NCBI RefSeq assembly: GCF_004785645.1
Contig: NZ_SRPE01000001.1
Coordinates: forward strand, 62,001-126,000
Length of the DNA stretch: 64,000 nucleotides
Direction: 5' to 3'
Source of the DNA: Empedobacter tilapiae
GTDB taxonomy: Bacteria; Bacteroidota; Bacteroidia; Flavobacteriales; Weeksellaceae
Shown here: one piece after another, positions 21,304 through 21,651 of the stretch
Layout of the letters: the number at the start of each line of letters is the position of its first letter
Numbering within the stretch: position 1 is the first letter of the stretch
Made by a program: the position numbers and the translations under genes
Notes under the pieces: generated by a model
Seen by the model: only the letters and a program-made list of their open reading frames with translations
Database searches by the model: none
Told to the model about the DNA's origin: nothing

Positions 21304-21326
21304 GTCACTCTGAGCCTGTCGAAGAA
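21304..21326 (-). repeat. Inverted repeat, left copy, bounding the GIY-YIG gene
   Basis: A 23-nt segment with core CTCTGAGCCTGTCGAAGAA. It matches the reverse complement of 21629-21651 at 21 of 23 positions. It contains the stop codon (21305-21307) and the last codons of the GIY-YIG gene (DSSTGSE). The core resembles a repeat that I recall as frequent in Bacteroidota genomes (CATTCTGAGC..GTCGAAGAA). Confidence 0.8.
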
Positions 21327-21616
21327 TCTTTTCTATTTTTTGATAATAAAGGTAAATCTTCAAATCTATTATTAATTAAAGCTTCTTTTTTAGCTCTACT
21401 CCAACCTTTCAGTTTCTTCTCAAAAATTATTGCATCGTTTACGTCTAAAAATTCTTCATTAAAAACTAATTTAATTGGTCTTCTCGAAAAAGTATGACTC
21501 ATAGGATTTATTCCGTCGTTATGCTCATTAATTCTTTTTTGGAGATTATTTGTCACTCCTACATAATACGAATTGTCTGAACATTTTATAATATAGACAT
21601 AATATATTTTTCTCAT
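21305..21616 (-). CDS. GIY-YIG domain nuclease, single-domain, bounded by inverted repeats
   Basis: A 103-residue protein made almost entirely of a GIY-YIG nuclease domain (UPF0213/YhbQ type). YVYIIKCSDNSYYVGVTN supplies the YVYI...YVG signature, followed by NLQKRINEHNDG with the catalytic-type Arg, and the conserved FNEEFLDVNDAIIFEKKLKGWSR with the catalytic Glu in FEKKLK. The family cuts DNA; cellular roles of the short members are poorly known. The gene sits between two inverted copies of a 23-nt repeat, and the left copy encodes its C-terminal tail and stop. This looks like a small mobile or repeat-associated unit. Confidence 0.9.
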   Translation of the reverse strand: MRKIYYVYIIKCSDNSYYVGVTNNLQKRINEHNDGINPMSHTFSRRPIKLVFNEEFLDVNDAIIFEKKLKGWSRAKKEALINNRFEDLPLLSKNRKDSSTGSE

Positions 21617-21628
21617 AACAAAGCTTTA

Positions 21629-21651
21629 TTCTTCGACAAGCTCAGAATGAC
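21629..21651 (+). repeat. Inverted repeat, right copy, bounding the GIY-YIG gene
   Basis: A 23-nt segment with core TTCGACAAGCTCAGAATGAC, the inverted partner of 21304-21326 with two mismatches. It begins 13 nt upstream of the GIY-YIG start codon. No clear target-site duplication is seen outside the two copies. Confidence 0.8.

Follow-up and report, generated by a model that had tools for sequence, protein, structure and literature searches.

A small GIY-YIG nuclease gene between inverted GTC-headed hairpin repeats: a candidate partner for the CGTC REPs

Most members of a large clade of small GIY-YIG nuclease genes lie between two GTC-headed hairpin repeats, and the type of repeat tracks the type of protein. 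The gene at the centre of this analysis belongs to Empedobacter tilapiae and lies in a stretch of 64,000 nucleotides (hereafter the window). Gene and repeats together probably constitute a REPtron-like unit, with a single-domain GIY-YIG nuclease substituting for the RAYT tyrosine transposase. Both enzyme and repeat are of kinds already known; their pairing did not come up in the open-access literature searched. A search by title and abstract start, with most subscription journals and bioRxiv outside it, returned no paper tying GIY-YIG to REPs, and no open-access text was found with both 'CGTC-tagged palindromic' and 'GIY-YIG'; in the available part of PMC9465073, RayT and a GIY-YIG gene stand on separate lines of one gene table.

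The gene and its repeats in Empedobacter

The locus in the window consists of three features:

21305..21616, minus strand: gene for a 103-aa single-domain GIY-YIG nuclease (open reading frame and PF01541 match)
21304..21328, plus strand: left REP copy, GTC head outward, GTCACTCTGAGCCTGTCGAAGAATC, overlapping the stop and last seven codons of the GIY-YIG gene
21627..21651, minus strand: right REP copy, GTC head outward, GTCATTCTGAGCTTGTCGAAGAATA, its end 10 nt ahead of the start codon

The initial annotation had described inverted copies at 21304-21326 and 21629-21651 around a GIY-YIG gene; these are real, with 21 of 23 positions matching in that frame, and self-comparison of the window gives arms of 24 nt (21304-21327 and 21628-21651) that are 92% complementary. 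Its further claim that the left copy supplies the last seven codons and the stop holds for the 25-nt unit (21304-21328), which encodes DSSTGSE* up to the stop of the 103-aa frame at 21305, but not for the 23-nt frame, by which the seventh codon is merely touched. The same REP-type gene ending is found at two loci of sister genomes (L026 and L038). One copy of the pair has the head TGTC and the other GGTC, and in the right copy ATTCT is paired, followed by tandem G-A mismatches plus G-C and a loop of 5 nt. The predicted DNA hairpin energy is only -1.0 kcal/mol for the right copy and 0.0 for the left, against -10.1 for the S. meliloti type. An RNA family was considered and rejected, the sole Rfam match being at chance level and far under the gathering score.

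Within the whole 64 kb, the 19-nt core at up to three mismatches yields only the two gene-flanking matches (0.01 expected). The mobile unit first suggested for this locus presupposed that the repeat recurs elsewhere, and so it does: the 18-nt core at up to two mismatches is present in 18 copies in the E. tilapiae genome (0 for a reversed-pattern control), and copies are found in 13 of the 14 Empedobacter genomes, this one included. All but two of the 18 lie outside open reading frames of at least 100 aa, one of the exceptions being the copy that overlaps the window gene. The E. tilapiae copies mostly read tGTCATT at the head and finish ATC or ATA, the CCA tail being absent from them. Six PF01541 matches lie in the same genome, and four are small genes: the window gene (L001) and L004 have two-sided repeats, L003 has degraded repeats on both sides, and L002 belongs to a different clade with different palindromes.

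The protein

The window protein matches the PF01541 profile with an E-value of 3.3e-19 and 69.4 bits (cut-off 22.6), and residues Y8, Y18, G20, R28, H32 and E66 are all present. Catalytic Y8, Y18, R28, H32 and E66 are invariant in 127 of 127 proteins that are repeat-linked on one or both sides. Judged by profile and residues, the gene product belongs to the GIY-YIG nuclease superfamily. No NCBIfam family was matched by either of the two proteins tried. The REP-encoded C-terminal tail has low confidence in the structure model. Fold comparison (VIA-align) places Slx1-type nucleases, I-TevI, UvrC and UPF0213 within one Z unit, with no single best relative, and the window protein has a fold family in common with nucleases that cut branched DNA or act in homing (Slx1, I-TevI, UvrC). 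Slx1 and I-TevI are longer, multi-domain enzymes, unlike the window protein, and we know of no tie of either to dispersed repeats. UPF0213 of Firmicutes (1zg2 and 1ywl) is like it in being a single GIY-YIG domain of about 95-107 aa, and these two structures are its best matches both by sequence and by Foldseek, a likeness at the level of the protein. A role as a defence gene was rejected (0 PADLOC families).

Association of gene and repeat across loci

The association was assessed with a motif-free score for repeats shared between the two 300-nt flanks of a gene, for which 116 small GIY-YIG genes had been found and 110 of 115 were scored (five with short flanks dropped); one locus set comprised the best 80 of 512 confirmed relatives. 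A score of at least 16 was reached by 93 of the 110 genes versus 9 of 250 control reading frames from the same loci, and by 55 of 68 further small GIY-YIG genes, scores which take in tRNA-linked genes whose flank repeats are pieces of tRNA.

Repeats of the main class are built alike. A GTC head is followed by a variable stem, in which G-A mismatches often occur in tandem (GAG...CGA), then by a loop and by the complementary stem; the loop has 5, 6 or many bases, and lengths of 6 nt or above 10 nt are common. A strict descriptor of the GA form, which was derived from some of the counted loci and is therefore partly fitted, unlike the motif-free score, finds a density of 2.4 units per kb in the 350 nt to each side of 176 genes and 0-0.51 per kb in the remaining bins. 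It yields 403 units versus 6.7 in shuffles of 50-nt blocks, two-gene loci being counted twice in the per-gene counts and in the shuffles likewise. The 296 near units have 62 different stems with pairing conserved, and per gene (n=176) the arrangement is two-sided in 74, one-sided in 19 and neither in 83. A wider descriptor (GA form or stems of 7-10 bp) was applied to 199 of 205 genes after de-duplication, the set also used for the tree and from which frames outside 70-140 aa were excluded; it classes 96 genes as two-sided, 36 as one-sided and 67 as neither, against 2, 38 and 301 of 341 random points. Both descriptors demand GTC, and their counts are thus no test of the head. Control reading frames have two-sided units in 2 of 181 cases.

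The nearest unit points its head away from the gene in 76 of 108 cases upstream and 89 of 120 downstream. Upstream units lie at a median of 35 nt from the ATG, and among 115 downstream units 26 run into the end of the gene.

Phylogeny and co-diversification

In a tree of 199 proteins, a REP clade of 132 small GIY-YIG genes (branch support 99/89) comprises 95 with two-sided GTC-headed hairpin repeats, 28 with one-sided repeats and nine with neither, and these nine, unit-less by descriptor, include L003 with its degraded repeats. A mostly tRNA-linked clade of 38 (support 100/99) has no two-sided and five one-sided members, 23 of its genes having a tRNA gene within 250 nt. The difference in two-sided repeats between the two clades is highly significant (Fisher 2.8e-17); the alignment underlying the tree is short (103 columns), so that many forks are unresolved.

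Protein distance and repeat distance are correlated (Mantel r 0.55; 0 of 999 permutations as high) in a set of 132 genes with any unit, five of them tRNA-labelled, and the correlation persists for pairs below 50% identity (r 0.42; again 0 of 999 as high). At protein distances of 0.3-0.4, 321 of 330 pairs have no flanking gene family in common, with the reservation that the flanks were 1.5 to 4 kb long, at many loci no more than 1.5 kb, so that shared neighbours are under-detected, and 68% of these pairs have repeats at a distance of at most 1. A common location is therefore an unlikely cause of the correlation, and repeat type tracks protein type.

These data bear on the possibility that REPs collect passively near short accessory genes between operons and have no functional tie to GIY-YIG. 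REPs are indeed mostly intergenic, both in the available part of PMC3733652 and in 16 of 18 E. tilapiae copies. Passive collection is nevertheless very improbable: only 1 of 50 short reading frames (80-150 aa) of the same loci has two-sided repeats, none of the 38 genes in the tRNA-linked GIY-YIG clade has them, and at 21 RAYT loci of other genomes the CTGAGC..GTCGAA form, the only one counted there, is two-sided in none and one-sided in two. Nor would hitch-hiking lead repeat type to follow protein type.

Repeats without the enzyme

What speaks most strongly against a simple one-to-one relation of enzyme and repeat is genome G015, which has 206 strict repeat copies and neither a small GIY-YIG gene nor a RAYT; it is possible that the enzyme was once present there and then lost. 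Across 30 partly overlapping loci of this genome, 11 distinct head-outward dimers were found, ten of 71-72 nt and one of 76 nt, one of which folds at -29.5 kcal/mol as single-stranded DNA. Since their heads face outward like those of the gene-bearing unit, they resemble a gene-less version of it. The dimers of about 72 nt (L325-L350) have a self-complementary spacer, and several adjoin another repeated sequence, gcaatcttcccgcat.

Genome G290 likewise has neither a small GIY-YIG gene nor a RAYT and holds 19 copies of the TGAGCNNNGTCGAAG loop form. This form, which covers the 6-nt-loop relatives only and is one loop base longer than the window repeat, occurs in 147 of 296 genomes and in 0 copies in E. 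tilapiae. By a rough hand tally, a PF01541 match at E <= 1e-12 is found in 40 of 44 genomes with at least five TGAGCNNNGTCGAAG copies versus 156 of 252 others, a figure given no weight since it mixes repeat-linked, tRNA-linked and UvrC matches (G292 has a frame of UvrC length only). G175 (41 copies) has just a weak 118-aa PF01541 match (E 4.7e-4) and G207 (24 copies) a 97-aa match at 4.2e-12; both have RAYTs.

RAYT was rejected as the partner of the repeats, PF01797 being absent from 4 of the 14 genomes searched (G000, G009, G290 and G015); E. tilapiae has no PF01797 match. As a separate observation, 9 of 21 RAYT loci score at least 16 in the flank-repeat test, and some RAYT genes of Bacteroidota (L290, L299, L304, L310 and L313) have long direct repeats of other palindromes, for instance GGGCTAAAGCCC in L290.

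The number of PF01541 matches at E <= 1e-12 ranges from 0 to 17 per genome. Such a patchy, multicopy distribution, together with mostly unrelated neighbours and presence or absence between close relatives, fits a selfish unit better than a domesticated nuclease of REP processing or repair that resolves REP cruciforms for the host and sits beside REPs for regulation, with no spreading. This latter role is improbable, even if the tied best folds include structure-specific nucleases of the Slx1 type, REPs near gene start and end would allow autoregulation, and one small Caulobacter COG2827 gene carries an SOS box according to the available text of PMC1839093.

Sites without the gene

The symporter gene at the window locus has a close relative in 11 of the 14 genus genomes. 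The GIY-YIG gene lies between symporter and cinA in E. tilapiae and G008; in G004, G001, G006, G007 and G013 cinA adjoins the symporter and the GIY-YIG gene is absent, in G002 and G009 cinA is about 1.1 kb from the symporter with no GIY-YIG match, and in G005 and G010 there is no cinA within 1.5 kb of it. Gene-less relatives of the locus, for which the initial annotation had suggested looking, thus exist, and the gene is not fixed here throughout the genus. A scar within the left REP is common to two gene-less genomes, G004 and G005, as a deletion could leave. Of the genomes compared, G005 is nearest to E. tilapiae (94.1% at the symporter gene), which makes loss as likely as gain; the patchy presence at this locus may accordingly reflect loss rather than insertion.

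In Azospirillum lipoferum 4B (L249:1079-1588) sufB and sufC of the suf operon are separated by the unit, which has a REP dimer at either end. Three fetched Azospirillum relatives of about 95% identity lack the whole unit and have no REP there; another eight Azospirillum records align as two pieces (by sequence match only). For the Sphingobium locus, seven records cover 99-100% of the stretch, two of which were fetched. Three fetched Sphingobium relatives lack the gene; TYG64 and TYG74 hold a single double-headed palindrome at the site, while TYG72 has no REP there. For Sinorhizobium K101, the site without the gene likewise has one double-headed palindrome at the same place. Such a palindrome is the expected residue of a deletion between the stem repeats of both REPs and could also be a target. 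No target-site duplication was recognised at the filled and empty junctions compared, where the flanks have diverged.

The gene-less Sphingobium and Sinorhizobium sites would suit a free-standing homing endonuclease that cuts a palindromic REP site into which its gene is then copied, the REPs themselves being spread by something else. This reading also draws on the presence of I-TevI among the tied best folds, on the abundance of REPs without the gene in G015, and on the occurrence of GIY-YIG domains in homing enzymes (PMC1564403, in the part available). It is rather unlikely all the same. A filled site contains two complete inverted REPs and not two half-sites, the double-headed form is also produced by deletion, and the three Azospirillum sites and that of Sphingobium TYG72 are empty with no REP; homing alone, moreover, leaves the co-diversification of repeat and protein unexplained.

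Other phyla and the CGTC REPs

A tblastn search of plasmid records with a relative of the window protein found 33 records, of which 14, mostly proteobacterial, were fetched. At ten of these the gene is clearly bracketed by CGTC- or TGTC-headed repeats (Planktothrix, Aeromonas, S. meliloti, Shinella, Novosphingobium, N. gonorrhoeae, Azospirillum, Sphingobium, Rhizobium CIAT894 and Neorhizobium), a Spirosoma locus is borderline, and the two-sided arrangement is absent at Photobacterium (L242) and R. tumorigenes (L246). Sinorhizobium K101 (L253) has one palindrome upstream; its frame overran the gene, which places it outside the tree with its downstream flank not properly covered.

CGTC REPs were defined by Di Nocera et al. 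in 2013 and reported from five phyla, alpha-proteobacteria foremost, as repeats that 'apparently lack a dedicated transposase' (PMC3733652, in its available portion, which also equates the CGTC-1 repeats of Neisseria with dRS3). The repeats described here share the C/TGTC head of this superfamily, which includes Neisseria dRS3 and Rickettsia RPE-4 and RPE-6, and come near to its stem of 8-9 positions starting with AT and its loop of 4-5 nt. The flavobacterial repeats differ in their tandem G-A stem mismatches, their often 6-nt or long loop and their want of the CCA tail, which is seen at several proteobacterial loci. The words UvrC and GIY-YIG are absent from the text of PMC3733652 as far as it is available, and its intragenic set, in the same portion, excludes REPs in hypothetical proteins of less than 120 aa. 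Among the species that this paper lists as CGTC-positive is Caulobacter crescentus, for which the available part of PMC1839093 gives three small COG2827 genes. Small GIY-YIG nucleases are the best candidate for the dedicated enzyme of the CGTC REPs. A conserved nuclease that co-diversifies with the CGTC REPs beside it turns the question of the missing enzyme into a direct biochemical test, and provides a hypothesis of function for small proteins annotated merely as 'GIY-YIG nuclease' or 'excinuclease ABC subunit C'.

A possible mechanism

The arrangement resembles the GTAG REP/RAYT REPtron in that short hairpins with an unpaired head, found as intergenic singles and inverted dimers, flank the gene of one small DNA-processing enzyme; it differs in that the enzyme is GIY-YIG and not a Y1/HUH transposase, and in that the head is C/TGTC and not GTAG. 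The initial annotation had surmised that the nuclease acts on the repeats or spreads them, as transposase-like proteins do for REPs. This fits the strong and phylogenetically deep association, cutting of the REPs by the enzyme and movement of the unit being steps that we infer. What has been observed is that gene and repeat are associated, that this association is deep, that the two co-diversify, that the repeats are dispersed and that presence and absence vary; the REPtron-like reading adds recognition, nicking and spread as presumed activities. The nuclease would recognise the GTC head along with the REP hairpin in extruded or single-stranded form and would nick near the border of head and stem; repair of the break would then lead to spread, either by homing-like copying from a REP-flanked template or by excision and reinsertion. 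Head-outward REP dimers would spread as non-autonomous units, and the gene-bearing unit more rarely. The head-outward dimer can be proposed as the mobile unit only conditionally, since head-inward dimers are equally common around the genes (97 head-inward versus 85 head-outward at 125 loci).

A broader proposal, which we regard as possible though somewhat doubtful, is that these genes represent a type of mobile DNA present in several phyla, with a dedicated single-domain GIY-YIG mobiliser of roughly 100 aa acting on hairpin-tipped units. Such a mobiliser might be the missing enzyme of the CGTC REPs, might work by hydrolytic cutting of hairpins and host repair with no HUH, DDE or site-specific recombinase, and might have a related clade that targets tRNA genes in the same manner.

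Related clades and unusual loci

The tRNA-side GIY-YIG clade of Bacteroidota encodes proteins of mostly 79-92 aa (L155, L159, L174, L181, L196, L203, L210, L212, L222 and L224). At the loci read, the flanking direct repeats contain pieces of a tRNA gene, often with a terminator, and tandem copies occur, three at 317-nt spacing in G145 and five at 450-nt spacing in G249; this clade is possibly a minimal mobile element targeting tRNA genes. A further clade of 18 has headless palindromes with no free GTC head at the members read (L002, L025, L027, L125, L149 and L150), of the form GGTGGCTGAGCG...GTCGAAGCCAC or CCTGAGG...TCGAAGGG. In Planktothrix agardhii (L241:884-1800) the unit lies between the gene of an MmeI-like type IIL restriction enzyme and DISARM drmA, among many TGTCATTCTGAG repeats.
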